Below are positions 4,115-54,316 of a DNA stretch of 64,000 bases, one piece after another. This DNA is from Siphonodentalium dalli (taxonomy: Eukaryota; Mollusca; Scaphopoda; Gadilida; Siphonodentaliidae), in assembly GCA_032622095.1 (NCBI GenBank), contig CP136066.1, positions 155,333,152 to 155,397,151 of the forward strand. The letters run 5' to 3'. Numbering within the stretch: position 1 is the stretch's first letter; each line of letters opens with the position of its first letter. Position numbers and translations under genes: made by a program. The notes under the pieces are model-generated. The model was not told the DNA's origin. It searched no databases and saw nothing but the letters and a program-made list of their open reading frames with translations.

Positions 4115-7100
4115 GGGCGTCTTTCAGTTCTCCGCTGTCTCCACTTGGCCCTCCTGTTAGCATCCTTTTCCTTCTAGAGGGGGTCTTTTTCTTTCTCTTC
4201 TTCTCACTATGGAGTTAACATCAATATTAGATAAATCCCAATCACTAAGAGTTGTGTTTTAATACACACTGATATTTATAAATGAACCCTTTGCATCAAA
4301 TGTTTGCTTTGAAATGTTTGTTTTGGACGTTTACTCCAGGTCCAGATATTGTGCCACACCCTAGTAATGCCCTTATACGATTAACTGATTATTGATTGAT
4401 GATGACCGAATGATTAATTTGTTTTTGTTTTTTCTATGTTTTTCTTCCATTCTTATCCTTTTTATCCTTTGTTTAGATAGCCAGTCAACTTGTCCTATTA
4501 CCAACTTGATAACTCAACTAAAGCCAATTCTTGTTTTATTTCTAGTGAAGAATATAGGCAGTGAACCACACCAAACTAAATTAAATTTAACCGACTAAGA
4601 GCTCCATTAAAGAATTACATCCCCCTACCTTTGGAATTATTTTATTGATACTACATACATATAAAACAAAAAAAAACATAGTAATGATAATGAAATTTCT
4701 TCAGCTTTTTGACCATTATGTCTACACAACTCATCTTGAGACCAAAATGTAATGAATCAGTATTCTCCGTTCATATAAGGGATAGGAGCTTCTTTAAGTT
4801 CTGTAACTTGTGCTCCGATCCCTTTATCGCCTCTCATCCTTATTCACCAACTGTATTTTCTTTATTTGTATTTTGTTTAATATTGATTGAGGGATAATAA
4901 AATATGTTTAAATCAGTAATGCCCTTGATTTCATTTGGAGGAGTTGGCTTACAGCTGATGCCTTTAGCCCTTTCATGAAGTTCATGACGGGAGCAGCACT
5001 GGTGCAGCATGAAAGATCCTGTGTCAGTGCATTCTCTTATATATGCGAGTCTCCCATACATGTAGGGAGCCTCACATTTATAAGAGAATGCACTGGCTTT
5101 CAAATTCACAGTAAATAATGTTAGGCCAATGTATTCTCTTATATATGTGAGGCTCCCTACATGCAGCCCTCTTAATTCAGATTGTTTGGCTTCGGCAATC
5201 CGCTACGGCAACAGTATGCCGTGGCCCAGTTTGCTTCAGCAAATTGCTTCGGCAATGCTGATTGCCGTAGCCAATTATGAAGGCTGCTACATGTATGGGA
5301 GACTCGCATATATAAGAGAATGCATTGGCACAGTGCTTTCGCAAAATTTCAGGAAGCTCCAGTCATTGAAGGGTTAAGTCACATCTTCACTTTGATAAGA
5401 CTAAATCTTGCATATCACTGATATCAGTAAATTCTGATTGTTGTAGATATTTATTTCTTTGATTTCAGAGCCCGATGATGTCTCCAGCTTTAAGTGGCTA
5501 TGGTGTTCCAGGACCTGCATCAGTACCAAACCCTATGCCACCTCCGTCAAATCTTAGCATGTATCCACCGCCTCAGACACCAGGAGGACCACTGTCACCA
5601 TTCTCTCCTGCGACTCCAGCATCAGAAGGGTCCGGAATAGTTCCTCAATTACAGTAAGTTTGCAGATCTTGTTGTCCAGTAAAATATGGAGTCTATAACG
5701 CTATCTATACTAAATACTCATTGACGAGTAGTTCCCTTAGGAAATTTTCAGATAATAAGTTCAACAAACGACCTAAACATTTCCCACCAATGATTATGAA
5801 TTCATCTACTCTTGTATTATCTGTTTTTATTACCTGAACACCCCTCCAAACGAATAATAAATCATTGCTAGTTATAATTTAATCACTGATGGTAGAATCC
5901 ATTTGGTATAGAATGGGTTAAAGACAAATGTGGTCGTTTTACTATTTCAATCTTAAATTTTTCTCTTCCTCTTCTCTTTAACTATTATTAGCGAACATTT
6001 CAACAGCATCAGCCATACTGTTTTGATAAAAAAAATGACGTTTAAACTTTGCGTTAAAGGGGTACTGTACGCCAATTTCAATAAATTCCCGGTAAAAATT
6101 GCGATCTAATATCAATATTATATTTTAAATTAACGTATTTGAGTCGACGATGTCTACTGAAAACGTTCCGGTTAACAGGCTATCATAAAAGTCAAATTGA
6201 ATTATTTAATATAAATGAATTTATGGCTGGAGTCATAAAATGGCGAATTATGCCATTACGAGTTACCGTTCTTGAAATCTCACATGTTGGGTGTCTTTTA
6301 TCGATGGCCGTTTACGACGAACATTATTGAGTTGCGAACAAAACATGTTACATGCAAAAGGAAGTCCCGCTATAACCAATTTGGAAAAAAAAGAGAAGAA
6401 ACAAGATTCATAAAGCGTCAAGTATTTTTATAGGGGGTGAGATTGTTCGATGGAAGAGATTGCAGGCATCAATTGAACTTCCGGTTCATCCTGCAACCTG
6501 CGTCTTCTCCGGTGAAGGTCAAAAACATGGCGCGTAGTTTGAAATCGTAATATTTTTATTTCCAAGATCAATATTTTCGTCGCTAAATTAGGTTTATACG
6601 AAACTCATATAACACGAACACAATCTAACTTGAAAGTTATGTCAATGGGAGTAAATAAAAAAATTGCCTATCTCTGTGTACAGTACCCCTTTAATGTAAA
6701 TATTTTGTTTCTAATTCTTCCGTGAATCAATCAGTGATATCTAGGCAAATAGAATTGTTTCTGAAATGTTTCACCAAGAAGAGTCACTGAATATAATCAG
6801 TATGGGAAAAAAACTGCATGCCTGTTCCGCCAGTTTGAATGAAATTCCTGCAAGGAGTAAAGTTCTTATGCAAGTTTGAACTCCCCTGCTGTATACAGTA
6901 ATGTCCAAAATAATCGACTCTTTAACCACAGCAGAATTATGGGTAATTTTTCAGGATTTAGTCGGAAATATGGCTTGTTGCCAATGCCATTCATCGGAAA
7001 GCTCTCAGTGAGAGCTTTCTGATGAATGGCAACAAGCCATATTTCCGACTAAATCCTGAAAAATTACGCTGTGGTTAACAAGTCGATTATTTAGGGCATT

Positions 7101-10100
7101 ACTGTATTTCACTTAAACCTTTCTATACTAAATGGATTCTCCCGTCTGTTATAAAAGTATACATTAAAATGTCTTATTATTCATTTGGAGGGTTGCTCAC
7201 TGCTCAGGTAAGATAAGCAGATGAAAGACAGACAAAATGATAATACAAGTGCAGAAGGATTTCTATTAATTGGTTGGAAAATTTCAGAAAATATGTTTAG
7301 CAAACCACATATGGTCGTTTGTTAAACTTATTATCTGAACATTTCATAAGGGAACTACTCGTCAATGAGTATTAAGGATAAAAAAAAAGGCTGGCATTAA
7401 AGTCAACTGATTTATCATGAAATGGGTGAAAATAATTGCTTCATGTTTATTTTAGTAGTTAAACATTGTTACCTAGGGATGGGACGATACACAAATTTCA
7501 CGATGTGATATGTATCGCAATACTGAGGTCACGATATGATATATATCACAATACATTGTACCGTATACGTTGTATTAAAGTCGCAGTCGATTTTTTAACC
7601 GAACATTCTGCTTTTTTGTATAAGATCATGCACCTACAAAGGGACAACAGCATGATAGATTGAGATATTTGTAAGATAACAGGAGTGAGTTACATCATAG
7701 CAAAAATACTTGTTCACAAAAGTAAGCAAGTCTTATTTCTTGATTGGGAGGGCTCTGTGGCTCAGTTGGTAAATAGTACAAATCCAAGCCGTCTCGCCCT
7801 CCAGGGCTGGTTTATATGGGTTCAAATTGACATGTTTCCATCGTGGACTTTGTAACTCAAAATCGTTATGGAGTTGCCAGTTACTAGCCGATGGTTTGCC
7901 GCAAATGGTCAACGATTTTATCAGCCATTGAATTCACTGTTAGATTAGCCGTAAGCGTGCGGAATTCCTCCACCACTAAAACTGGCAATGTCAGATAGAT
8001 AGATAGATAATTTTTTAATGGCTAAAAGATGCAAAATTTGCAGACATGAGCATTTAAAGCATATATACAAAAGTGTAAACACAGTGTGACATTCATATAG
8101 TATAAATATAAAAAGTATAGATATATAAATATAACAAGAATGCAGCTTGACAGTTCTGTAGAGGGACAAGATAGTGAATACACCTAGCTTAGTAATGACT
8201 ACTAAATAGATACTCGTTCCTGTATATATATACACAACATGAAAAATCAACCGTGCTATCCCACCCTCCTCCCTCAACAGGACTGTCATGTTGCTTAAGA
8301 GATACTAGTAATAGAACCAACAGCTCTTCGCCACCTGCATATACACACTGCTGCCATGTATGGCCGGCTTTAGACTGGCATGTCCATGACTGAAAGATGG
8401 AATCCCTAAATACAGGCAGCAGTGACAATATATGCAGCTGGCCAAGTACTGTCATCGTACATAGAAAGGAAAATAGAGTAGTAGAAGAGAAATATACATA
8501 TGAATACGCTCGTCTGACAAGTCATGCCATCGATTGCCATCAAGGAGCGCACAGGAAAGCAAGCCAAAGCTTGCTTATTTCCACTGTGGTCCTTAATGGT
8601 AACCGACCATTCGTGATACATGTATGGCCTTAGTTGCTGAAAGCGACATTAAACACCATTGAATCATATTTCTTGATTGTGATTCTCGTCTGTTGAGTAT
8701 ATCCATCAGAATTCAGTTAAAAATAATAAACGAAAACAGATTGCTTTAATAATTTTTATGGTCTGAGGGAAATACAAAATCTCTTTGTCAGTTATACCGG
8801 TAGAGTAATATTAATTGACATTGGGCATCTTGTTGTTTCAGCGTAATTATACTTTAATTCTAATTGATATATTGTGTTATCATGAACCAAGTTCAGAATA
8901 TTAGTGTTTTACTTCAGTATTTATAACTGTCATACTTGCTCATTTTGGGATAAAGTGTCAACACCTGAGGCCCACACTGTAAATTGTACTGGTATATCAC
9001 AGTTTTCGCTGACAGAGTCACAACATGCATTGGGGCTGTCTGTTCACAGGTGTTTATGTTGATCTTTGTTGACCTGCTTACAGAATTGGATTGTCATAAG
9101 CATAATACAAACATTGGTGGGACTGATGGACAGAGGATAAACAGACATGATGAATATGGAAAACATTTATTTATGAATCAGAGATTACTTTATATCATGT
9201 GGTTTATTATTTCTTGCTGACATCGGTAAAATCCTCTGTCCATATGGGTTACAGTCATTTCGTACCCTCGCAATTTCGTACCCTACCAACTCGTACCCGA
9301 TTTGGTCATCTCGTACCCTCTGGTCGTGAGTCATTTCGTACCCTGTGAGTCATCTCGTACCCTCCTTCAGAAATGACAAGAAGAGCACCATAACACCAGA
9401 CGATGCACTCTAAACGATGAACGAAGCCTAACATAACATCGTGTGGCATTCTGGTGGGCTTCTGTGTCATTTCATGGAGGTAAAACATGACATGCAAGGG
9501 CAGGAAAATACTCACGAACAGAAGCTACGAGATGACCAAATCAGTTACGAGTTGGCAGTTACGTAAGCCCCGCCCCCCCCATAAATCATTCAATATACAT
9601 ACCATCAACCATAAGCTATGCATGATTATCATATTGGCATTTGCAGATGTTGCATACCTGAATCGTCCAGAACTGGTGATGAAAACAAGGGAAACAACGT
9701 CAAGATCGAATTTGGTGCGGGAGAATATGTTATCTATCATGTATTACCATTAACTTTATCACATACAATTTGGGACCCTCAGTCTGCGGATACTAAATGA
9801 CCAACATAAAATATTAATTCAGTTCACAGACCATTTATAATTTCTTTTTAGAAATGGTTATACAAAATGTTTGTTTGACAATTTTAATTGGGTCTCAAGA
9901 CTTTTTATGAACAATCTATACATTGAAAATACTTTAATTTAAACTACTTTGTTTTATTTTAGACGAAAAGAGAAACGTCAGTTGATAGTAAACATACCGT
10001 ATGGATAGATGTGAATAGCGCGACAGTCCATAGAGCAATGGCAGCATTTTCTGATATTTTTACCGCGAAATCACAAGTCACGCCTTAAACCACGCCCACT

Positions 10101-13100
10101 AACTAACTCTGATTCCCATTGGTCATTACAATATCTTGTCACTTTAAGGACAGGTGTCACACCTCTCTTTGTCTTCATCTAAATGAACACCTCCCAAGAT
10201 GAGGGAAACCTCTAATCCTCATTATGTTGTGTTTAAATAAAGTGTAATACATAAAAACAATGATTAAAAATGAAATTGAAGAGGTTAAACTTAAAACATG
10301 CGTTTATCGCTGGATTTGGAAACTAAATTCACAAGATAACTATCACAGAAAACTTCCACCGCCGACTTCAGTATTCTCGTTATTTTATAAAAAATGTTAA
10401 TGCATTTTTTGTTTCATTCGAAGTTCTAAGTTGTAACTGAGACAGACAGTCCAGAATCATTCCAAAGAGTCAATGAATAAATTTTAATGTATATCCATAT
10501 GCATTCTCTCTTCCTATTTATACTAAGATGGCAAATATTACCTGCAGTATATTGAACCATAAAATATACGATTTAAAAACAATAGTGTATCTATTTATTA
10601 CTACATACTGTACACAGACATACATATACATAACAATCACTATTTTAAAACAGCATGACCTGTTGTCTTTTTCATCATTCTGAACTTCTACCTGATAAAT
10701 GATTGTTATGTATATGACGTTCTTGAACTGTTGACAATTCATCGCATGGTTTGTTTTTGCCCCTAAACCCCGCGATTAAAGCGAAACACAGGCACAGTCA
10801 TAACATATGAACGAACGTTACCGACTTCATAGCAATTAATCTTTTTTTGTTTGTTAGCTAAAATGACAGTATTTATCGTGACGGAAACGAGAAAAGCTCT
10901 TTAAGTTTCAACGCCGAATAAGAAGGGATGTTTTGTACTTAATTATAAATACGTTTGTTTATCTTTCCAATACTAAATAGGGTGCATAAATATATAGAAG
11001 TATACCGTTTTATTTCCCGAGCTACATGTATCATCGCCGTCTCTGAATGGTTTAAACAATATTTATTTCTACCCTCAATTAATACATATATACATGAAAC
11101 AAGACATTGATCATTGTGATTTATATGACAGGTTAGAATAGAACAGGGTGAAGAGGACATAACAACAAGCGGGTCACCGCTTATCTGAAGTTATCTCCTC
11201 AGAAAAGAAAAGCATGCAGAATAGTATGTGACTGTCTGCACAACGTTCAACACTAGTTGTTGCGTTTTATTTACGAAAATGGTTCCAATCAATCCATAGT
11301 TTCCATTCTATTTATTTTTGTCAACACTTTTGTTTATATATGTTAAATAGTAGGATTAGAATTAAAGATACGGGCGGCGTTGGCGATGGGTATGCTGTTA
11401 AAATATTCAGCTCCGCCAAAAACCGCCATAAACAGAAAGAATAGTCAAATATAGACAGACTTTGTTCTTATACAATTCAGAAATATGGCATAAACAGTAT
11501 GGTATTGTAAATTTTCCCCTTTATTATGTAAGCAAAAGCAAAAAAACGTAACGTTACCTGGCTTTTGTTTAGATCCGGACATGGTAACATAAAAATAGTT
11601 ATTTGTTACTGCTTTCCTGATATGGAAAAAATAAAGAGCGTTTATATCATTTGTGTGTGATTAGAATTGCGCTGTGTTATGTAAAACTTCTTTAACACGA
11701 GCAGGCTCTTGTTTACTACACCATCGTACGTCTTGATGACAATATAATATTTAGCGCTGATTATGTTTGGCATATGAACAAAGCTATATATATTTTAATA
11801 TTCCTTCTGTTTATGGCGATTTGAACAAATATGAATATTTCTGCAACGAACGCCGCCCGTGCCTTTAAATATGTTTACACTAAAATGGTTCAATAAATAC
11901 AAGACATGCTTAACAAGGGCTTATTAATATGCAAGTCGATCGTTGTAATTTTTACTAGGCTGGCAAAAATTCAAAACGCATTAAAACTTCTTTTTATAGT
12001 CGATATCTGGCCATCACAAGTTCATATTAATTATATCGTGCCTTGGTCCGATATAATTATTTTTCTGATGGTTGTTTTATGATGTCCAATCTGACAGGGC
12101 CTCTTTAATATAAAATAATCAAGATCTCACAGAAGATGTTAAAAATAAAATATATACTCGATATATGATATCACAGAGAAACAAGAGTGGTATATATAAC
12201 GCCATTGATGTCAGCTATTTCGCACCTTTAATGTGTTAAACGTCTCTCACACATGTAAGGTGGACGCTCTTTATTCATTGTGCCAAAAACATTCCCTCTT
12301 CTTTTTTTCCATTTCTGACTGATTCTGGTGTAATTTGTTTTACCACGTTGGTGGATTTAATCAAATGCGCGCACAGTCCTCGTGATGTGCACATGTACAT
12401 GCATGGTAAATAGTATAAACATTTTTTTATTTCCAATTCCAAACAAATAACATAATATACAAATGACACATAAATGCAAAATAGAAGTCTTAATATAATT
12501 ATGGAAACAATTATCAGACAAGCCCGATGGCCTATATGAAGTAATCTCCCATTTGGCTACATGCCCCGTCCCCAATAAGTGATGGGAAGGATTGGAAATA
12601 AAGGTTTTCGGAGAATTGGAGATATATAACATAATCTGAGTTAGGTGTATATGGGAGAAAATGGAAGAAGATATAGTGTTCGGGATAACAGGCGGCAGAG
12701 AAAGAAAAGAAAGGGATGGTAATCACTTCAACTTATTGGCATAGTATGCGGGTGGGCACATGCAGAGTCGGGTTGTACACGTATAACGTGCTCTGTTGCC
12801 CTCGCTCTTTATTAGGAGTTTGGGGAACGGACCTGGGAGGAGTTCGAAGAGGCAAAGCCTCTCCCATACAACCCACTTTGGAAATTTTGGATGAGATCAT
12901 GAGAATGGGATACATCGCACATGACGGGGTGAACATAAAATGAAAAATGCTTTCTTTTTCTTTCTGTTTTCTGTTGCTGTTGCTGTTGGAGGTGATGACA
13001 TAGCCATAACTGCTTTGGATTTGGCTATTTCTTCTTTATATTTGGCTATGTCCTCTTGTGCACCTCTGAGTATGTTCTCAATCTCGGCCGCTGAGTAGGA

Positions 13101-16100
13101 GCCGGTGCTGTTGTTGTTGGTGATGCTGGTCGTGGTGGCGATGGATGACTCCTGGCTGATGTATTCCGGAAGAGTCTCCATCACGGCATCAGCAGCGGCA
13201 GCTTGCTGGGTTACGTCAGTCAGCACTCCAGCGGGGAGGGATTGTCTGGGCGTCTCTCAGACCTCTCCCGGACTGGACTTCCGGTACCATCATCGGTGGT
13301 ACGCAGGCGACCAACAGTCTTCGCAGCCCAGTGGGAATGGGCAGCCAGCCGACCAACAACTGCCTTCTTCTTTCTCCACTCAGCCCTCCGAGCTGATAAA
13401 TTGCATTTATAAAGAGCGTTTATTGTCATATCAGAAAGATATGTGAGAAGATTGGCGCAAAGAGGTAACATGACACGGGGAATGTCACACAATAAGGAAG
13501 GTGGAATTGAATGATGAAAAACAGTATACTGGTACTGATGAAATAACAACCGCAATAGCCATATTAGGATAAAGCAGTATTAATGATGAACACACTTAGT
13601 TCGACAGAGGGAAATCTGGTGCCAAAGATAGACGCGGTTGATATCAATTGTTCATAAAAGACAAGTTCCATATTAAAGGTACTCAATCCGATCAGACGCT
13701 CCTAAACTACTATTTCTTTGGCTTCGGGGGTAACAAATATTTGATTCGAGTCGAGGAACCCACCCATCAAAGCTCAGATTGATTAGATATCGATGTTTGA
13801 AATGTGCTGTTTCTGTTGTTTGTGGCCCAATCTTTTCGAGTACCACGTGCTAAAAACGGACAAATTGCGGCTGTAAGATGGATAACTCTACAATCAAGTT
13901 GTTACCACTTTGTCAAATATTTTTTACCCCCGAAGCCAAATAAATAGTAATTTAGGAGCGCCTGATCCGATTGAGTACCTTTAAAAGGTAAGTCCCAAAC
14001 AATTATAGTCAAGGGGTAAAGGAGAAGATCACTCGATCTACTCACTTTATTTATTATAGTCAATTAACCTACAATGAAGTGACACCATGCACACTGCTTA
14101 GTGAACGTTTTTCCTGCAATCGCCCGTAAGACAATATGAAGCATTGTTTGTTGTTTCAACAATTTTGGACTGTGCTATTTGAGATTGTAATTCTATAATC
14201 CTCACACCTACACCAGATGGCAATTAACACGCTTTTAATAATTAATCCAGATGTGTCCGTTGTGTTTACATCACGTTGAGTCTATCATATTATTTTATGG
14301 ACACTTTCGCATGTTTTGCTCTGAATTACTGTCGATCTAGATATCGTATAACACGATTCTATACATCGAGTCAACTCGTACCAAAGTCGCCGATGTTATT
14401 GCAAAGTGTTCATGGCCGGAAAATATATACACACAAACCAAAGCCACTTGATTTTAGCGTTATCAATTCTTCATCCGCAATTTGGTCCGAGACCGTCACC
14501 TTGACGAATATTTTCCATGCGGAAAAAGTACATATCTCCCGAAATAATTAATTTCAAAAATCGACATCTAATCACTCTGAGCTTTGATGGGTGGGTTCCT
14601 CGACTCGAATTTTTTTTTTTACCACCGAAGCAAAGGAAATAGTAATTTGGGGGCGTTAATTCGGATTATCCCTCTTTATGTTTATTATGCATGTTCGCAT
14701 GTAGGTTTTGCTACGAGTCACGACGATTTAGTCAACTCATACCCTAGGTGTAAAGCTTAACGAATTGGGCCATTTAATTGGGGGCCCCACGAGTCTATGT
14801 AATGAGTCAACTCGTACCTGATTAGCAGGTAAGTTAAATTATTACAAGTTTTTAATTTACTAAATAAAATTTAGTAAGTCAACTATACCTGCATATATAT
14901 ATAAGACACTGCGTGGGGTCGCCAAGGTGTGTGTTTATGGGTGATGTCCAACGTATACGTACATCAATGTACGTTGATGTGCCGATGGAATCATTTATAG
15001 TACACACTATTCGCTGACTAAGTCACCACTTCCCCCGAGTGATTGAGTGACAATTTCATAGGATGATTCACAAGTTTATATACAAATTCATACATACACT
15101 GAAGCAAGGAAGCATTATATTATTTTATGGACACTTTCGCATGTTTTGCTCTGAGATAGCGTCGATCTAGATATCGTCACTCGATTTCTATATATCCAAT
15201 CAACTCGTACCAAGATGTTAAGATCGGTTGATTCAATTATTGCCAAGTGTTAAAAAACTAAGTCAACTCGCACACTGAATGGGGGAAGTGTCACTATGCA
15301 TGGGGCAAACTGTTTATGGACGGATGGCAACGTATGTTTAATTGACCCAACAATTTCACTTGCAAATGATCAGACTTAGTTATCTCGTACCCCGAGTCGC
15401 AATTGCATATATCAAGTGAAACTACTATCATGGGACACATGTTTTAACGCTTGGTTCGACTCGTATAGTATATGGGTGAATATTTTTTACACCCCGAGTC
15501 AACTCGTATACCATAGACTGTCGCCGTTTGCACAATTTTCCACAACAAAGTCAACTCGTACCACGAGTCACAAATTTTACAATTTCGTAGTATACACCTT
15601 GTACAATTATCAAAAACTAAGTCAACTCACAACCTGAGTCACTTTGAGTTTATCATATTCGTTTTGCTCTGAATTACCGTCGATATAGTTATGGTAACGC
15701 GATTTCTATATATTGAGTCAACTCGTACCCAGATGTTCAGATAAGCTAGTTTAATCATTGAGAAGTGTTCATAAACTAAGACGCTCGTACACTGTGGTGG
15801 GATTGTCACTGTGCATGGGACGGGTGACAATTAACGTACGTTTAAATGTTGACACAATGATTTTACTTACGAATGATCAGACTTAGTCAACTCATACCGA
15901 GTCACAATTGCATATTATGTCGAGTGCAACTATTATCATGGGAAACATATCTTGAACGCTTTGATCGACTCGCACGTACATGGTTTCTACATCACGAGTC
16001 AATTCGTATACCAAAGACTGTCGCCGTTTGTGAGTAACGTAAACTCTTGCAAAAGTTTCCACAACAAAGTCAACTCGTACCCTCAGTCACCAATTTTATA

Positions 16101-19100
16101 ATTTCGTGCAATTAATTAATTGTGCAATTATCCTAAAACTAAGTCAACTCGCACCCTGAGTCACTTTGAGGTTATCATATTATTTTTTGGACATTGACAT
16201 AGTCAACTCGTGGAGTGATGTGACTACAGTTTACCAAGACTAAGTCAACTCGTACCCAGATTGTAGGATAGGATAGGATAGGATAATTGTATTTACGATA
16301 TACACACATGGAAAGTACAATTGTATAATGGTATACACAGTTATTTCAATGACTTCGATATACTGAGTCATCTCGAACCCTGCGCTCTTGATGTAAAATT
16401 ATCCAAAAACTAAGTCAACTCGTACCCTGAGTCACTACGCGATTTCTATATATCGAGTCAACTCGTACCCAGATTGTATAATATTATACACAGTTATGTC
16501 AATGACTTCGATATACTGAGTCATCTCGAACCCTGCGCTCTTGATGTACAATTATCCAAAAACTAAACACTCGTACCCTGAGACACTACGCGATTTCTGT
16601 ATATCGAGTCAACTCGTACCCATGTCGCCGATGTTATTGAAAAGTGTTCATCGACATAGTCAACTTGTGGAGTGATGTGACTAGATTTTACCAAGACTAA
16701 GTCAACTCGTACCCTGATTTTATAATGTCATACACAGTCATTTCACTGACTTTAATATACCGAGTCATCTCGTACCCTCCACTCTTGATGTGCTTGTAAG
16801 GTCTCATGCCAATCTGAGGTGGAAATAGTTATGTGACTAGAGTTTACCAAGACTAAGTCAACTCGTACCCTGATTTTATAATGTCATACACAGTCATTTC
16901 ACTGACTTTGATATACTGAGTCATCTCGTACCCTCCACTCTTGATGTGATTGTAAGGTCTCATGCCAATCTGAGGTGGAAATAGTTATGTGACTAGAGTT
17001 TACCAAGACTAAGTCAACTCGTACCCTGATTTTATAATGTCATACACAGTCATTTCACTGACTTTGATATACTGAGTCATCTCGTACCCTCCACTCTTGA
17101 TGTGATTGTAAGGTCTCATGCCAATCTGAGGTGGAATAGTGATGTGACTAGAGTTTACCAAGACTAAGTCAACTCGTACCCTGATTTTATAATGTCATAC
17201 ACAGTCATTTCACTGACTTTGATATACCGAGTCATCTCGTACCCTCCACTCTTGATGTGCTTGGAAGGTCTCATGCCAATCTGAGGTGGAAATAGTGATG
17301 TGACTAGAGTTTACCAAGACTAAGTCAACTCGTACCCTGATTTTATAATGTCATACACAGTCATTTCACTGACTTTGATATACTGAGTCATCTCGTACCC
17401 TCCACTCTTGGTGTGCTTGTAAGGTCTCATGCCAATCTGAGGTGGAAATAGTCATGTGACTGGAGTTTACCAAGACTAAGTCAACTCGTACCCTGATTTT
17501 ATAATGTCATACACAGTCATTTCACTGACTTTGATGTACTGAGTCATCTCGTACCCTCCACTCTTGATGTGCTTGTAAGGTCTCATGCCCAACGATTTTA
17601 CTTCCAAATGATCAGACTGAATCAACTCGTACCCAAGTCACAATTGCATAATGCTGAGTGCAACTATTCTATCATGGTAAACATAATTATCTTGAACGCT
17701 TTGGTGGACTCGTACTGTATATATTGGTGCGCAATTTTAACACCACGAGTCAACTCATATATAATATAGACTGTCGCCGTTCGTGTGTGACATAAACTCT
17801 TTTGAACAACAATTTCGTAGAATAGATATACATCTTGTACACTTATCCAAGAACTAAGTCAACTCATATACCCTGAGTCACTTCGAGTTTATCATATTAT
17901 TTTATGGACAGTTTCGCGTGTTTTGCACTTAGTTATAAAGTCAATCTAGTCATCGTAACGCGATTTCTATATATCGAGTCAACTCGTACCCTAAGTCACA
18001 ACATTTACAGGCTCGTATAATATAAATACATCTTGTACATTTATCCAAGAACTAAGTCAACTCATATACCCTGAGTCACTTCGAGCTTATCATATTATTT
18101 TATGGACAGTTTCGCGTGTTTTGCACTTAGTTATAAAGTCAATCTAGTCATCGTAACGCGATTTCTATATATCGAGTCAATTCGTACCCTAAGTCACAAC
18201 ATTTACAATCTCGTATAATATAAATACATCTTGTACATTTATTCAAGAACTAAGTCAACTCATATACCCTGAGTCACTTCGAGTTTATCATATTATTTTA
18301 TGGACAGTTTTGCGTGTTTTGCACTTAGGTATAAAGTCAATATAGTCATCGTAACGCGATTTCTATATATCGAGTCAACTCGTACCCTAAGTCACAAATT
18401 TTACAATTTCGTATAATATAAATACATCTTGTAGACTTATCCAAGAACTAAGTCAACTCATATACCATGAGTCACTTCGAGTTTATCATATTATTTTATG
18501 GACAGTTTCGCGTGTTTTGAACATATACAGTCGATCTAGTTATCGTAACGCCATTTCTATATATCGAGTCAACTCGTACCCAGATGCTGGGATAGCTGAT
18601 TCAATCATTGTAAAGTGTTCGATCGAACGTACGTTTAATTGACCCAACGATTTTACTTCCAAGTGATCAGACTGAGTCAACTCGTACCCAAGTCACATTG
18701 CATAATACCGAGTGTGACATAAACTCTTCTGAACAACAAAGTCAACTCATACCCTGAGTCACTTCGAGTTTATCATATTATTTTATGGACAGTTTCGCGT
18801 GTTTTGCACTTAGTTATAAAGTCAATCTAGTCATCGTAACGCGATTTATATATATCGAGTCAACTCGTACCCTGAAACACTTTGGGTTTATCATATATTT
18901 TATGAGTTTTTATTAATGGGACGTGAACTATCTAGTCATAAATAATCATCAGTTAACCACCCCTTTGTCCGTTTGAATTATGATGTCAGCGGTATATTAC
19001 CAGCGAGTTTGTTTTGATAGTTAATCCCCCTTTGTCCGTTTGAATTATGATTTCAGCGTTATATTATCAGCGAGTATAAGACAATAGGTTAATCAGCCGC

Positions 19101-22100
19101 GATTGTGAAAGACGACGGATTAATTTATGGATTGTTGCTTTTCCAGTAGCTCGTTTTACGTCTGTGTCATTTGACTTTTATATACCGAGTCATCTCGTAC
19201 CCTGTGCTCTTGGTGTGTTTGGAAGGTCTCTAAGGTGGAAATATGGGTCTGTATCCTAAATAAAATAAGAGGGTACGAAATGACTCAGGAGGGTACGAGT
19301 TGACTCAGCTGGAGGGTACGAGTTGACTCAGAATAGGGTACGAGTTGACTTTTTTCGGAAGGTACGAGTTGGTCAGGGTACGAATTGACTTGTTCCCGTC
19401 CATATATACGACCGCTCAGATACCATATGTACCTGTGGTCACTGTATGTTGTGCAATTTTCGGGGGAATTCAGTCATCTATTAACTTACATGCTGACTTA
19501 CCAATGTGTATAAGTACTATCCGGGATACATTTGAGGGGGAAATTATGTTTAATAGTTGCAAATTAATTTTCTTATACACCGACCGGTTTGTATCGTGAT
19601 GTGGAGATACTACAGCTTGCGATACGATACAATATCGGGAATGACCATATCATGACAGGGCCTGACCCAGCCCGTTTTCGACTCCCGTATTCCGGGTTTG
19701 GGGACATTGAGTTTGGGCGCCCAAACAAATTGAAGGCAAAAAAAAGAAATTTAATTTAAATTTTTTTTTTTTTTTTTTAAATTCAGGTCCCAATTCATAT
19801 TATAACAAGATACACAGCATTTATGTGTATTTATATATATTGACATATTAAGACATTTAAGTTTACAAAAAGATTTAAGTTTAACAGTTGGAATCATACT
19901 GTAAAGTATGTTTGGTTCTATCTAGCTTTCATCTGTGAAAACTTCAAATAGTTCAGGTTTGTTACCATAATACCATTCAGCCTTCAGACTTTAGTATTTC
20001 AATCAAATTAAAGCGAAATTACACAATACAGTATAGGAACAGTGACAAATTGATCAAACCAACCTGGTTATCAGGTGGGATCTCATAATACAAAATGAAT
20101 AATTAACGTAGAGATTAGTTCTAATTACTAGGGCCCTAGCATATACCGGTATATCAATTGGAAACAAATAGAACAACACAACATAATTTTGAGAGTGGCT
20201 AACTACAAACCTAGAATAAGAAATAATGAAAAATGTTGCAGGACTGTTCATTCTATCTTTTTCATCTCAGTCATACAGTGGGGCATATTATACATTATTA
20301 GATTATATTATGCATTATTATGATAATATATTAATCTGTTATCATTTATGTGTGTTTGTTTAATTCTGTTAAAAACAATGTTATCTTGTAAGTTGAAATA
20401 AATATGTTGGTTCATTGTGTCTTTTCTTTTGTGTATAAATATAAAATGAATTGATGTATTAAATGAATTTTGTTTTCTAGCTTAAGTGACTCTGGTCATA
20501 TTAATAGCTACTGAAAGTATAAAATTCTCTTTGGTTAAAAAATGAAAATCATCCTTCAGATATGCCCAAGATCACTCTCAGAGAATTGGAATTTCAAGAA
20601 ATTTCCCGGACCGCCCCAATGAGAGGGGCCACCCCTCTCATACTCTCCCCGGTTCCTGCCTTTGGCAGTCGGCGATGACCTTTGGTCATCGGGAGGTGTC
20701 CCCAAATAAAACCTGGATCAGGCCCTGCATGATGCTTCGATGTATCGTCCCATCCCTATTGTTACTCTATTAGTCACTAGTCAGTGTTTCCACTAGGGGC
20801 CCCTTTTCTTGTGGCTAGGGGAAAAACACAATTGCCATCCCTGCCGATGTTGATGAGGAAGATACTGATTTTTGCTGTTTTATCAGGATTTTCTATTTAT
20901 TTGTTTATTCATCACAAAGATTCTTCTTACAATATTTCAGGAATATTGTGTGTACTGTGAACCTGGGATGTAAACTTGATCTTAAGACGATTGCCCTCCA
21001 AGCCAGAAATGCTGAATACAACCCGAAACGATTTGCTGCAGTCATTATGCGAATTCGAGATCCAAGAACCACTGCATTGATCTTCAGTTCTGGGAAGATG
21101 GTATGCACAGGGGCAAAAAGGTAATTGTTAAATTTAGTCACTTTTTGACTGAAATTACTTCTTAACACATAGGGCAGAATAGGGTGGGAAAAGCTTGAAT
21201 TCTTATGCCAGACTTTAATTTCGTGGCACAAAACACTGACAAATAACGAATTTACAAAGGCTATGAAAAAGAAATAATACTTTATTTTAAAACAGCCAAA
21301 TGAACTCTATGTGTATGTAATTTAGTTTAAAATTAGTATGCATATTGTACACTTAACATTTAAACCCATCCATGACTGGAGCTTCCTGAAATTTTGCAGG
21401 GAGACTCGCATAAATAATGCTCTGGCACAGAATATTTAATGCTGTGCCAGCTCAGCTTCCATCAAGAAAGGGTTAACTGTCGGAAATAAATGTCGAAAGA
21501 CTAGTTCTGAAAAAATTTGTGATAATGATGATGAATTTACAGGTACCAAGTCCGCTAATCTAAAATTGTTAAAACGTTGACTGCTACTACGAGCTATCAT
21601 AATCTCATAGACTCATACTTTCAGGTTACTATCACATTAGTATCATGTCTCTGTATATAATTCCCTTTGTGGCTCTTTCATGTTACCATACAAAGCTACA
21701 TTATTGTATTGGTATTAAGAATTCATTTTGGTTGGTCACAGGGCAGAAAATTTCTCTTCCAGAAAACAATGTCATATCTTTTGTTGCTTTTATTTTGCAG
21801 TGAAGACCTTGCTAAGTTGGCTGCTAGAAAGTATGCAAGAATCGTACAAAAGCTGAGATTTGCTGTAAGTGTGTTTAGTTAATTTATTTTAAAGACATAT
21901 CATGGACTTGTTCGGGTGTGTGAAATTGATAAGTTAGTACTCATGTGCTTGTCAACCTGGGGAAGGTAGCATTCTACTCAGTCTGGGTGAACGTCGACTC
22001 TGTATTTGAAATATAGAGTCTGGAGCTAATGTCGCCAAAACCATTTTATTCAGCGAAGAGCTTCCCCAAAATGACGTCACAGATTTTTTAAAATACATCG

Positions 22101-36331: not shown

Positions 36332-37151
36332 TTAAAGGGACAGGCAGCCTTCGTTGTAGGCTATAATCTAGAAATAACATTTATCAAATTATGATAATTT
36401 CTTCAAGAATATACTACATGTAAGTATTGCATAATGATGATGTGAATGCGATGTTATTAACAAAACATGCTTTGTGTCAGAGAAAATGCAGTTCGAGTTT
36501 TGTTTAGTTTCTTGCAAAAAGAGCAGTGAATTGCTTATAAGTAAAGTCACGATATTGCGTCATTTCCTTATTTAGATTCTCGCACATTATACGTCTTGTA
36601 AAACCCCTAATTTGGTGCGTCTACAACTTACAATAATATAGTAAATTCTTTATTTGGTATGTATTACCATATATAGGTGAGAGAAAATACTTACTGGATT
36701 GAAAAATATTCATCTCTTTGCAAGAACAATTATATTATGTGCACGTTTTCTGTCTGATAATTTCCCAATCATGAAGTAACATGGATTAGCTGGATTTTGA
36801 ACTGACAGCGGGTAGAATGGGTTGATTAAAATAAGATTTGGTGTGATTTGAATGCGATTGTTGATGGTGCCAATAATTTTATCTACGCCTTCCACAGCAC
36901 AACAAAACATTTTCATTGGTCGATCTGGTAGTTTCGAGTGTTTGTCTATAAACAAATGGTTCTGTAACTTTTTTGATGTTTGTTTACATAACAAAGCATA
37001 CACACGTGACAATAATATGCACTGTATTCAATATATATGATTGGTATAAGAACAACATCTGTCTATTATATAATATTCTTTCTGTTTATTGCGGGTTTAG
37101 TGAATGTGGCTATTTTAACATACCCACCGCGAAGGCCGCCCGTATCTTTAA
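36332..37151. mobile_element. TTAA-flanked MITE, family 2, long copy
   Basis: TTAA lies at both ends, with termini AAGGGACAGGCAGCCTTCG and CGAAGGCCGCCCGTATCTT. The right end shares TATTCTTTCTGTTTAT and GCCGCCCGT with the element at 11362-11868. Confidence 0.75.
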
Positions 37152-37516: not shown

Positions 37517-37732
37517 TACAGTAATGCCCTAAGTAATCGACTCCTTAACCACAGCAGAATTATGGGTAACTTTTCAGGATTTAGTAAGAAATATGGCTTA
37601 TTGCCATTCATCGGAAAGCTCTCAGTGAGAGCTTTCCAATGAATGGCAACAAACCATATTTCCAACTAAATCCTGAAAGTTACCCATAATTCTGCTGTGG
37701 TAAAGGAGTTGATTATTTAGGGCATTACTGTA
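37517..37732. mobile_element. Palindromic TA-flanked MITE, second full copy
   Basis: TACAGTAATGCCCTAA and TTAGGGCATTACTGTA are the ends. The body is a single long inverted repeat centred on AGCTCTCAGTGAGAGCT, matching the copy at 6894-7107. Confidence 0.88.
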
Positions 37733-38143
37733 TGTGCAAAGAGAGGTGTGGCTTTGTGTTTATCCTTTGTCGACGTCTATCATAATCAATGTAATTTGCT
37801 GGTGAAGACAAAGAGAACATGTTCTGGCATGCTTAATACCACAGTGCTAATAGCAGCTTAAGATCTTGCTCTTAATTGCAAATTTTTCACCTAATCCTAA
37901 GAATTAACTCCTCTGACTTTAATTCAAGGTCAGAATAGTGAAACACATTTCTCTGGTTAGACAATTATTTTTCTTTACTTTTTTCAAATATCAATTATGT
38001 TCCTCAAATTCCTTGTTTATGCAAACATTACTCAGTCTTTTGGAGTACTATATTATTTTTAGTCTTGAGTGTCAACTCTATTTTTTACAAGAATAGTTTT
38101 GTCCAGTCAAATTTGTGACATGTCTGTTGTAAGGATCATATGC

Positions 38144-47261: not shown

Positions 47262-47923
47262 ATGAGCAAATGAGCAAATGAGCAAAAAAATGAGCAAATG
47301 AGCAAAAAAATGAGCAAATGAGCAAGAAAATGAGCAAATGAGCAATAAAAATGAGCAAATGAGCAAAAAAATGAGCAAATGAGCAAGAAAATGAGCAAAT
47401 GAGCAAGAAAATGAGCAAAAAATGAGCAAATGAGCAAAAAAATGAGCAAATGAGCAAAAAAATGAGCAAATGAGCAATAAAAATGAGCAAATGAGCAAAA
47501 AAATGAGCAAATGAGCAAGAAAATGAGCAAATGAGCAATAAAAATGAGCAAATGAGCCAAAAAATGAGCAAGAAAATGAGCAAATGAGCAAGAAAATGAG
47601 CAAATGAGCAAGCAAATGAGCAAGAAAATGAGCAAATGAGCAAGAAAATGAGCAAAAAAATGAGCAAATGAGCAAAAAAATGAGCAAATGAGCAAAAAAA
47701 TGAGCAAATGAGCAAGAAAATGAGCAAATGAGCAATAAAAATGAGCAAATGAGCAAAAAAATGAGCAAATGAGCAAAAAAATGAGCAAATGAGCAAGAAA
47801 ATGAGCAAATGAGCAATAAAAATGAGCAAATGAGCAAAAAAATGAGCAAATGAGCAAGAAAATGAGCAAATGAGCAAGAAAATGAGCAAATGAGCAAAAA
47901 AATGAGCAAATGAGCAAAAAAAT
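47262..47923 (+). repeat. ATGAGCAA array, left arm (662 bp)
   Basis: The array alternates an 8-base unit ATGAGCAA with 12-13-base forms ATGAGCAAAAAA, ATGAGCAAGAAA and ATGAGCAATAAAA. The reverse strand is open in all three frames for over 220 codons, rich in Leu, Phe, Cys, Ser, Ala and His. This is a by-product of the repeat, not a gene. Confidence 0.95.
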
Positions 47924-47925
47924 GT

Positions 47926-48230: not shown

Positions 48231-48239
48231 TCTGACATC

Positions 48240-50160
48240 ATTCGAAGGGGCAATACACTCAAGGAGTTAAAGTGACACGAAACAAGGGACGTGATGTAAT
48301 ATTGGTGTTTGAATCTTAAAGGAACACAAGACACTCTAAAGGGACACTCATTATGAATGAATGTTAACAATACAAGCACACGAATGAAGAGCGTTGAACA
48401 TATACAAAATTACAAGACACTCTAAAGGGACATTCATTATGAATGAATGTTAACAATACAAGCGCACGAATGCAGAGCGTTGAACATATACAAAATTACT
48501 ACACGAATGAATTGAACCTTGAAATTTATATTTCACATCTTACCAACAACAGCTACAGGCATTATCATAGGGTTATACTGTCTTGCATGTACACACGCTA
48601 TGACATCATTAAAGGCGGACAATCCACTCACGGTGTGACAACAGATACAGACATAGGCATAGTGTTATACTATCTTACATGTACACACGCTATGACATCA
48701 TTCGAAGGGGCAATACACTCAAGGAGTTAATGTGACACGAAACAAGGGACGTGATGTAATATTGGTGTTTGAATCTTAAAGGAACACAAGACACTCTAAA
48801 GGGACATTCATTATGAATGAATGTTAACAATACAAGCACACGAATGAAGAGCGTTGAACATATACAAAATTACAAGACACTCTAAAGGGACATTCATTAT
48901 GAATGAATGTTAACAATACAAGCGCACGAATGCAGAGCGTTGAACATATACAAAATTACTACACGAATGAATTGAACCTTGAAATTTATATTTCACATCT
49001 TACCAACAACAGCTACAGGCATTATCATAGGGTTATACTGTCTTGCATGTACACACGCTATGACATCATTAAAGGCGGACAATCCACTCACGGTGTGACA
49101 ACAGATACAGACATAGGCATAGTGTTATACTATCTTACATGTACACACGCTATGACATCATTCGAAGGGGCAATACACTCAAGGAGTTAATGTGACACGA
49201 AACAAGGGACGTGATGTAATATTGGTGTTTGAATCTTAAAGGAACACAAGACACTCTAAAGGGACATTCATTATGAATGAATGTTAACAATACAAGCACA
49301 CGAATGAAGAGCGTTGAACATATACAAAATTACAAGACACTCTAAAGGGACATTCATTATGAATGAATGTTAACAATACAAGCACACGAATGCAGAGCGT
49401 TGAACATATACAAAATTACTACACGAATGAATTGAACCTTGAAATTTATATTTCACATCTTACCAACAACAGCTACAGGCATTATCATAGGGTTATACTG
49501 TCTTGCATGTACACACGCTATGACATCATTAAAGGCGGACAATCCACTCACGGTGTGACAACAGATACAGACATAGGCATAGTGTTATACTATCTTACAT
49601 GTACACACGCTATGACATCATTCGAAGGGGCAATACACTCAAGGAGTTAATGTGACACGAAACAAGGGACGTGATGTAATATTGGTGTTTGAATCTTAAA
49701 GGAACACAAGACACTCTAAAGGGACATTCATTATGAATGAATGTTAACAATACAAGCACACGAATGAAGAGCGTTGAACATATACAAAATTACAAGACAC
49801 TCTAAAGGGACATTCATTATGAATGAATGTTAACAATACAAGCACACGAATGCAGAGCGTTGAACATATACAAAATTACTACACGAATGAATTGAACCTT
49901 AAAATTTATATTTCACATCTTACCAACAACCGCTACAGACATAATCATAGTGTTATACTGTCTTGCATGTACACACGCTATGAAATCATTAAAGGCGGAC
50001 AATCCACTCAAGGAGTTAAAGTGACACGAAACAAGGGACGTGATGTAATATTGGTGGTTGAATCTTAAAGGAACACAAGACACTCTAAAGAGGCACTCAT
50101 TATGAATGAATGTTAACAATACAAGCGCACGAATGAAGAGCGTTAAACATATACAAAATT
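48240..50160 (+). repeat. 460-bp tandem array, left arm
   Basis: Full units start every 460 bases (for example at 48443, 48903, 49363, 49823), nearly identical. Each contains two sub-repeats around CATGTACACACGCTATGACA, one followed by TTAAAGGCGGACAATCCACT and the other by TTCGAAGGGGCAATACACTC. Each full unit has the same 95-codon open frame (MNVNNTSARMQSVEHIQNYY...). No domain is recognisable, so the frame may be incidental. Confidence 0.93.
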
Positions 50161-50459
50161 ACTACACGATTGAATTGAACCTTGAAATTTATATTTCACA
50201 TCTTACCAACAGCTACAGACATAATCATAGGGTTATACTGTCTTGCATGTACCATGCTATGACATCATTAAAGGGGGGATAATACATGCACGGTGTGGAA
50301 TGTTAAAGTGACACGAGATAGCGAGGGGTAGCATCACCAAATTACCCATCTGGGGACCTCATTCTGCCATCTAAAAATAGAATCTTTGGGTCTAAAATTG
50401 GTTGTACTAAAATATTCCCAAAAACCCAAAACTTCAAAAATTTCAAAAAACTTCAAAAA

Positions 50460-50889
50460 TGGCGGCGGTGGCGCCGCCGCCGAGAGCTTTCCGATGAATG
50501 GCAACAAGCCATATTTCCGACTAACTCCTGAAAAGTTACCTATAATTCTGCTGTGGTTAAGGCCGGCGGCGGTGGTGGCGGTGGCATTACGGTATTTTAC
50601 TGCGGGGTCCGCCGGCGGCGGTGGCGGCGGCGGCATTGCTGTATTTTACTGCGGCGGCGGTGCCGCCGCCGCCGGGGTCCGCCGCCGGCGGACCCCGCAG
50701 TAAAATACCGTAATGCCACCGCCGCCACCGCCGCCGGCGGACCCCGCAGTAAAATACCGTAATGCCACCGCCGCCACCGCCTCCGGCCTTAACCACAGCA
50801 GAATTATAGGTAACTTTTCAGGAGTTAGTCGGAAATATGGCTTGTTGCCATTCATCGGAAAGCTCTCGGCGGCGGCGCCACCGCCGCCA
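50460..50889. repeat. CGG/CCG-rich palindrome core
   Basis: A MITE half on each side (GAGAGCTTTCCGATGAATGG inward to CTGCTGTGGTTAAGG) encloses GGC-rich sequence. Two units of about 59 bp per side contain GGCATTACGGTATTTTACTG and GCGGGGTCCGCCGGCGG. The arms meet without a spacer. It is by far the most GC-rich patch in the window. The same 69-residue glycine/arginine-rich frame reads from both strands because of the symmetry. Confidence 0.92.
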
Positions 50890-51189
50890 TTTTTGAAGTT
50901 TTGGGTTTTTGGGAATATTTTAGTACAACCAATTTTAGACCCAAAGATTCTATTTTTAGATGGCAGAATGAGGTCCCCAGATGGGTAATTTGGTGATGCT
51001 ACCCCTCGCTATCTCGTGTCACTTTAACATTCCACACCGTGCATGTATTATCCCCCCTTTAATGATGTCATAGCATGGTACATGCAAGACAGTATAACCC
51101 TATGATTATGTCTGTAGCTGTTGGTAAGATGTGAAATATAAATTTCAAGGTTCAATTCAATCGTGTAGTAATTTTGTATATGTTTAACG

Positions 51190-53220
51190 CTCTTCATTCG
51201 TGCGCTTGTATTGTTAACATTCATTCATAATGAGTGCCTCTTTAGAGTGTCTTGTGTTCCTTTAAGATTCAACCACCAATATTACATCACGTCCCTTGTT
51301 TCGTGTCACTTTAACTCCTTGAGTGGATTGTCCGCCTTTAATGATTTCATAGCGTGTGTACATGCAAGACAGTATAACACTATGATTATGTCTGTAGCGG
51401 TTGTTGGTAAGATGTGAAATATAAATTTTAAGGTTCAATTCATTCGTGTAGTAATTTTGTATATGTTCAACGCTCTGCATTCGTGTGCTTGTATTGTTAA
51501 CATTCATTCATAATGAATGTCCCTTTAGAGTGTCTTGTAATTTTGTATATGTTCAACGCTCTTCATTCGTGTGCTTGTATTGTTAACATTCATTCATAAT
51601 GAATGTCCCTTTAGAGTGTCTTGTGTTCCTTTAAGATTCAAACACCAATATTACATCACGTCCCTTGTTTCGTGTCACATTAACTCCTTGAGTGTATTGC
51701 CCCTTCGAATGATGTCATAGCGTGTGTACATGTAAGATAGTATAACACTATGCCTATGTCTGTATCTGTTGTCACACCGTGAGTGGATTGTCCGCCTTTA
51801 ATGATGTCATAGCGTGTGTACATGCAAGACAGTATAACCCTATGATAATGCCTGTAGCTGTTGTTGGTAAGATGTGAAATATAAATTTCAAGGTTCAATT
51901 CATTCGTGTAGTAATTTTGTATATGTTCAACGCTCTGCATTCGTGTGCTTGTATTGTTAACATTCATTCATAATGAATGTCCCTTTAGAGTGTCTTGTAA
52001 TTTTGTATATGTTCAACGCTCTTCATTCGTGTGCTTGTATTGTTAACATTCATTCATAATGAATGTCCCTTTAGAGTGTCTTGTGTTCCTTTAAGATTCA
52101 AACACCAATATTACATCACGTCCCTTGTTTCGTGTCACATTAACTCCTTGAGTGTATTGCCCCTTCGAATGATGTCATAGCGTGTGTACATGTAAGATAG
52201 TATAACACTATGCCTATGTCTGTATCTGTTGTCACACCGTGAGTGGATTGTCCGCCTTTAATGATGTCATAGCGTGTGTACATGCAAGACAGTATAACCC
52301 TATGATAATGCCTGTAGCTGTTGTTGGTAAGATGTGAAATATAAATTTCAAGGTTCAATTCATTCGTGTAGTAATTTTGTATATGTTCAACGCTCTGCAT
52401 TCGTGCGCTTGTATTGTTAACATTCATTCATAATGAATGTCCCTTTAGAGTGTCTTGTAATTTTGTATATGTTCAACGCTCTTCATTCGTGTGCTTGTAT
52501 TGTTAACATTCATTCATAATGAATGTCCCTTTAGAGTGTCTTGTGTTCCTTTAAGATTCAAACACCAATATTACATCACGTCCCTTGTTTCGTGTCACAT
52601 TAACTCCTTGAGTGTATTGCCCCTTCGAATGATGTCATAGCGTGTGTACATGTAAGATAGTATAACACTATGCCTATGTCTGTATCTGTTGTCACACCGT
52701 GAGTGGATTGTCCGCCTTTAATGATGTCATAGCGTGTGTACATGCAAGACAGTATAACCCTATGATAATGCCTGTAGCTGTTGTTGGTAAGATGTGAAAT
52801 ATAAATTTCAAGGTTCAATTCATTCGTGTAGTAATTTTGTATATGTTCAACGCTCTGCATTCGTGCGCTTGTATTGTTAACATTCATTCATAATGAATGT
52901 CCCTTTAGAGTGTCTTGTAATTTTGTATATGTTCAACGCTCTTCATTCGTGTGCTTGTATTGTTAACATTCATTCATAATGAGTGTCCCTTTAGAGTGTC
53001 TTGTGTTCCTTTAAGATTCAAACACCAATATTACATCACGTCCCTTGTTTCGTGTCACTTTAACTCCTTGAGTGTATTGCCCCTTCGAATGATGTCATAG
53101 CATGGGTACATGTAAGATAGTATAACACTATGACTATGTCTGTATCTGTTGTTGGTAAGATGTGAAAATATAAATTTCAGTTCATTCGTGTAGTAATTTC
53201 GTATATGTTCAACGCTCTTC
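51190..53220 (-). repeat. 460-bp tandem array, right arm
   Basis: Inverted counterpart of 48240-50160, with full units at 51507, 51967, 52427 and 52887 (starts on -). It carries an additional partial unit (53040-53220) missing on the left. Confidence 0.93.
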
Positions 53221-53903: not shown

Positions 53904-54316
53904 TACATTTTTTTGCTCATTTGCTCATTTTTTTGCTCATTTGCTCATTTTTTTGCTCATTTTCTTGCTCATTTGCTCATTTTTATTGCTCATTTGCTCA
54001 TTTTCTTGCTCATTTGCTCATTTTCTTGCTCATTTGCTCATTTTTTTGCTCATTTGCTCATTTTTATTGCTCATTTTTTTGCTCATTTGCTCATTTTTTT
54101 GCTCATTTGCTCATTTTTATTGCTCATTTGCTCATTTTCTTGCTCATTTACTCATTTTCTTGCTCATTTGCTCATTTTTTTGCTCATTTGCTCATTTTTT
54201 TGCTCATTTGCTCATTTTTTTGCTCATTTGCTTGCTCATTTTCTTGCTCATTTGCTCATTTTCTTGCTCATTTGCTCATTTTTTTGCTCATTTGCTCATT
54301 TTTATTGCTCATTTGC
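53904..54316 (-). repeat. ATGAGCAA array, right arm (about 412 bp)
   Basis: Inverted, shorter counterpart of 47262-47923, directly joined to the MITE end AACCACAGCAGAATTAC. One unit has ACTCAT instead of GCTCAT near 54150. Confidence 0.94.

Follow-up and report, generated by a model that had tools for sequence, protein, structure and literature searches.

Positions 9246 to 19397 of the 64-kb window, by which we mean the whole stretch of DNA analyzed here, hold an element with mirrored ends and with internal tandem arrays built on the short motif found at those ends; its anatomy gives good support for reading it as a transposon (Table 1). The direct repeat GTCCATAT occurs just twice in the window on either strand, directly outside the two tips, and since the bases adjoining its two copies differ, it is exactly 8 bp long. 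An exact 8-bp duplication abutting mirrored, multimotif ends bears out the original prediction of a transposon flanked by such a repeat. The outer 22 bp of the two ends, with one end reversed, share 17 of 22 ungapped identities and have tips of the GGG...CCC form; the imperfect 22-bp inverted ends that had been described thus exist, but they form part of a longer imperfect mirror of about 120 bp (9253-9364 against 19390-19269; 75% over 124 columns; BLAST E = 9e-14). On both sides, the first two 15-bp motifs have the same geometry: one starts 7 bp in from the tip, and the next is spaced 16 bp from it. The end signature is GGG, four bases, and then AGTCAWTTCGTACCC, mirrored at the other end. Six motifs had been predicted at each end; the left end has six exact copies of TCGTACCC, whereas the right end has five exact copies and one variant ending in T.

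Table 1. Coordinates of the putative transposon and of the repeats within it
Feature	Start	End	Strand	Description
Left copy of putative target-site duplication	9238	9245		GTCCATAT, 8 bp
Left end	9246	9364	+	GGGTTAC tip, then six TCGTACCC motifs; spacings 16, 15, 20, 25, 19
Decayed inverted left-end copy	9497	9558	-	matches 9283-9344 at 84%
Interior without motif array	9600	14250		three isolated motif matches (3-4 mismatches); nested small elements; no recognized transposase domain
Internal motif region	14250	19268	+	49 copies, all in left-end orientation; 0 of 49 with GGG at -7
518-bp unit (approximate)	15143	16181	+	two copies, 75% identity, lowest among the units seen
153-bp unit	16320	16622	+	two copies, 94% alike
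156-bp array	16671	17589	+	5.9 copies; pairwise identity of five complete units 96.8-99.4%
198-bp array	17809	18581	+	3.9 copies; pairwise identity of three complete units 94.4-97.5%
Right subterminal stretch	19172	19230	+	59-bp match to six 156-bp units (85-90%)
Right end	19269	19397	-	GGGAACA tip, then six inverted motifs; spacings from tip 16, 24, 22, 23, 20
Right copy of putative target-site duplication	19398	19405		GTCCATAT, 8 bp

All 39 exact copies of TCGTACCC in the window lie inside the element (0.73 expected; none of 100 shuffles reached 39), with 6 at the left end, 28 internal, and 5 at the right end. The internal count of 49 rests on up to four mismatches to the 15-mer AGTCAWYTCGTACCC, of which 25 of the 49 are exact copies; at up to three mismatches, the window has 64 matches, 58 of them within the element. 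The first internal copy lies at 14369, about 5 kb from the left end. The claim that the internal copies all face the left-end way holds for positions 14250 to 19268 (49 plus, 0 minus) but fails for the short stretch at 9497-9558, where three decayed motifs with three to four mismatches face the opposite way. In the alignment of this stretch with the left end, the TCGTACCC cores appear to have decayed and many adjoining bases to have been kept. Among 19 representatives with dissimilar flanks, every one of the 15 motif columns carries 0.6 to 2.3 bits, and the columns outside the motif mostly carry less than 0.5 bits, the exceptions being -4 (1.3 bits), -11 (1.0), +16 (0.7), and -3 (0.65); the surroundings of the motif copies are therefore, for the most part, not mere duplicates of each other. 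The pentamer AGTCA occurs 80 times in the internal motif region and its reverse complement 17 times. AGTCAC directly follows 16 of the 49 motif copies, and these may perhaps be remnants of a denser ancestral array.

The higher-order units are related to one another and to the element's own end. The 153-bp unit has 75 bp in common with the 156-bp unit at 85 to 88% and 34 bp in common with the 198-bp unit at 97 to 100%; the 156- and 198-bp arrays therefore have building blocks in common. This contradicts the earlier view that the 156- and 198-bp units are unrelated, while the copy numbers given with it, about six and about four, agree with those measured. The 59-bp match between the 156-bp units and the right subterminal stretch links the array with the subterminal sequence of the element itself, and since the units also carry the motif, the proposal that the satellite-like arrays grew from end sequence is supported. 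These same observations bear on a different history, in which ends and array would be of separate origin, a preexisting motif-bearing satellite having been captured or having come to lie between two short elements. The inverted second left end at 9497-9558 does allow a short element to be imagined, and the 5-kb gap before the first internal copy would suit such a capture, but GTCCATAT flanks the outer two ends only and is absent beside the inner copy, and separate origin does not predict that the motif, as well as the 59-bp block of the subterminal region, should be common to array and right end. We therefore regard capture as highly unlikely.

A Pfam search of the six frames of 9246-9500, 9400-14600, and 14500-19390 gave no family above its curated cutoff. 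In the minus frames of the array, subthreshold matches were obtained to tRNA_int_end_N3 (22.2 bits; cutoff, 26), HTH_17 (18.4; cutoff, 27), ATE_N (25.6; cutoff, 27), KDM6_C-hel, and HetE-N; none has a stretch that passes by itself, and they were taken as repeat artifacts. Weak matches at E values of 0.16 to 0.24 were seen to DUF3613, HTH_71, NAAA-beta, and BTB. Three minus-strand open reading frames at 12733-13579 likewise gave no family above the cutoff, with RILP at an E value of 0.083 for one of them. The interior also holds a palindromic mini-element of roughly 310 bp (13673-13986), whose tips read TTAA and which has an inverted, partial relative at 14551-14667 within the array region, as well as a nested element (11358-11875) with inverted tips of the GGGCGGCGTT type, part of which has a 74% relative at 36969-37151.

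The element has inverted ends bracketed by a short direct duplication of the target, as expected of cut-and-paste DNA transposons of the terminal inverted repeat (TIR) order; such transposons also use a DDE/D transposase, their own or one supplied in trans, and in this copy no domain of that kind passed a Pfam cutoff. Within the order, hAT elements generally have tips of the CAGNG or TAGNG kind, and those of the P superfamily, including Galileo, generally begin with CA; tips of GGGTTAC and GGGAACA fit neither. Helentrons move by a rolling-circle mechanism and are not known to leave a target-site duplication, so the 8-bp duplication disfavors a Helentron or HINE and sets the present element apart from the oyster elements discussed below. 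A strict foldback element, with TIRs of hundreds of base pairs or more holding tandem repeats, is disfavored as well, as the mirror here is about 120 bp and the arrays run one way. By the descriptions in the cited passages, Merlin elements have terminal 5'-GG and duplications of 8 to 9 bp (PMC8101967), MULEs have duplications of 8 to 11 bp (PMC6446971), and KDZ/Zisupton elements have duplications of 8 bp, as hAT elements usually do (PMC12730594). An 8-bp duplication agrees with all four, and the GGG tips would fit Merlin as described. Pfam detected in this copy neither a DDE_Tnp_IS1595-type transposase, as in Merlin, nor a MULE transposase, nor a KDZ transposase, the existence of a KDZ model in Pfam being unchecked. 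As the duplication fits hAT, MULE, Merlin, and Zisupton and there is no transposase to choose among them, we claim no superfamily.

The ends, the duplication, the motif counts, their orientation, and the shared blocks are read directly from the sequence, and the element and its arrays are real. Their arrangement makes it probable that a nonautonomous cut-and-paste transposon inserted here once and that its subterminal repeat was duplicated inward and multiplied in several rounds. Judged from the anatomy, the single insertion would have made the 8-bp target-site duplication, and the transposase may have been lost or never carried. Each end would consist of the GGG tip and six motifs of about 15 bp at spacings of 15 to 25 bp, to which a transposase supplied in trans might bind cooperatively; binding at the motif is suggested by its position and repetition and by precedents in other systems. 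A piece of the subterminal region would then have been duplicated inward in left-end orientation, and direct duplication could have followed in several rounds through unequal exchange, slippage, or interrupted repair of an excision gap. The units of about 518 bp would have come first and the 153-, 156-, and 198-bp units, with their common building blocks, later, an order suggested by identities of 75% against 94 to 99%. The internal arrays are most likely a by-product, whose copies would be able to bind a transposase and, lacking the GGG tip, would probably not be cut. The complete lack of GGG at -7 among the internal copies fits such tipless, binding-type copies, and by our estimate it is also roughly what chance would give.

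Several points weigh against this explanation. The element is known from a single copy, at one locus and in one allele. The 156-bp unit resembles both ends over 20 to 26 bp, so that the left end and a turned-round right end cannot be told apart as its source. A divergent or exon-split transposase may have escaped Pfam. Exact 8-bp repeats 0.2 to 15 kb apart that bracket ends with 17 or more of 22 inverted matches were also counted. Ten dinucleotide shuffles of the window gave one case in total, which speaks for the transposon, but the real window does not give a clean statistic: it has 111 cases, of which the eight listed all come from a palindrome at 48 to 53 kb. Taken to the extreme, the single copy could mean that there is no transposon at all, the octamer and the end similarity having come by chance to flank a local satellite-like cluster; among the listed self-matches, the flanks adjoining the tips match nothing else in the window, which would agree with this. 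Chance would nevertheless have to account for GTCCATAT abutting the tips exactly and being otherwise absent from the window, for the equal geometry of the first two motifs at both tips, and for an orientation that, barring the decayed inverted copy at 9497-9558, reverses at the right end alone. We consider such a coincidence extremely unlikely.

We also considered whether the motif has a special role within the array. Distinct ends of homologous array segments fell in the motif (±3 bp) in 33 of 162 cases, against 33.2 expected, and with another scoring in 31 of 148, against 30.3 expected; counted per segment pair, 40 of 172 and 36 of 160 ends had both copies in the motif, which makes up 20.5% of the region. 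Breakpoints are therefore not enriched at the motif, and its use as a recombination breakpoint was rejected. Between homologous units, motif columns are 92.9% identical and flanks 87.4% (477 versus 1,879 sites; permutation P = 0.001), in 15 pairs picked by hand, mostly from 86 homologous segment pairs. Among 245 control 15-mers from outside the motif, selected in much the same manner but overlapping and hence not independent, 24 are as high as the motif or higher, and the top five listed all contain AGTCA; constraint on the motif is thus not demonstrated.

These results bear on the possibility that the internal array has a function, as a regulator of transposition or as a decoy: it would bind transposase but escape cutting, and would thereby lower, or by avidity raise, the mobility of the family. 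Such a role would account for 49 internal copies compared with 12 at the ends and for their uniform lack of GGG at -7, and it has a precedent in piggyBat, where, according to the cited passage, an extra internal transposase site limits mobility (PMC11707139). Set against it are the control 15-mers, which match or exceed the identity of the motif; the near-chance level of the missing GGG; and the presence of CA in place of CG in 9 of the 49 internal copies, as decay predicts. We therefore judge a functional array to be unlikely. A bolder version, to which we give still less credence, would make this a self-regulating transposon, in which the one-way arrays soak up transposase across the family or act as surrogate left ends pairing with the true right end, a brake tunable by expansion and contraction; if so, the adjacent old and young unit types would record successive selection for more sites. 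By analogy with Galileo and Tetris, described below, the motif may plausibly be a transposase-binding site, and the array may act as a binding-site sink or seed satellite DNA.

Elsewhere in the window, a near-perfect palindrome at 48233-53097 is 98.7% identical to its own reverse complement over 4.89 kb; a 460-bp unit is repeated 3.9 and 4.0 times in its arms, and on either side of it, at 47268-47924 and 53906-54316, a 20-bp AAATGAGC-rich repeat forms inverted arrays. It may be either a foldback element or an assembly artifact. A family of palindromic mini-elements is present in full or partial copies at 6893-7107, 37517-37733, and 61482-61561, and a dispersed direct repeat of 640 bp occurs at 1048-1684 and 6054-6697 with 88% identity. 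Two further features of the window suggest that this is animal DNA: an exon of UPF0669/C6orf120 (E = 4e-29) and a fragment whose match to the DnaJ domain (E = 3e-6) falls slightly below the curated cutoff.

Relatives were sought among prokaryotic and viral sequences. The exact 15-mer gave 10 single matches in viral contigs, and three close octamers were found in at least 118 stretches of prokaryotic genomes and 50 of viral contigs; in none of the 178 matching prokaryotic and viral records does the 15-mer, with up to two mismatches allowed, occur more than twice. One of these records (L085, examined in part) was rejected as a relative, its octamers belonging to a different repeat, and judging from these matches we take it that there is no relative among the 178. 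As these collections contain no animal genomes, their negative results say nothing about copy number. Four pieces of the motif, of 14 or 15 bases, were not found in the literature text searched.

Among known systems, Tetris and Galileo are close precedents. The cited passages describe Tetris of Drosophila virilis as a foldback-like element, apparently nonautonomous, with duplications of 8 to 10 bp, whose internal tandem repeats of about 220 bp share 37 bp with the outer end domain and have built satellite arrays (PMC4079207). Its TIRs, of up to 1,735 bp, contain its tandem repeats (PMC4079207), whereas the mirrored ends here are about 120 bp and the arrays form one block in one orientation, with several related units on one motif. 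Galileo likewise has extra motif copies in internal tandem repeats, two of them shown to bind the THAP domain of its transposase, but its repeats sit in long TIRs, and the site footprinted in it is about 70 bp inside the tip (PMC3688188), compared with 7 bp for the first motif here. Galileo is described with a THAP transposase, while the present element is known without any, THAP or other. Mutator-like elements make duplications of 8 to 11 bp, and one of them, Rehavkus, carries a minisatellite before its 3' TIR; it differs in its 9-bp duplications (PMC6446971) and in that no MULE transposase was found in the present element. The Cg_HINE Helentrons of the Pacific oyster resemble the present element in being nonautonomous and in carrying satellite-like arrays at their centers, which in exceptional cases come from two clusters (PMC7492417); they too belong to an animal, as the present element apparently does. 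The CACTA element Jozin of Chenopodium is another DNA transposon that supplied satellite monomers, in that case from transposase coding sequence rather than from an end motif, as reported in the cited passage (PMC7320549).

That transposon ends can seed tandem repeats is therefore already known, and the present element is a variant with an unusually clear layout. It would represent an apparently animal case in which a short end repeat seeded several higher-order arrays, related to one another, within the element, with the presumed stages side by side: the single motif, the loose old units, and the young units with their close identity. Should a transposase bind the motif, the family would make it possible to measure directly how additional internal sites affect mobility, a point raised by the work on piggyBat and Galileo.

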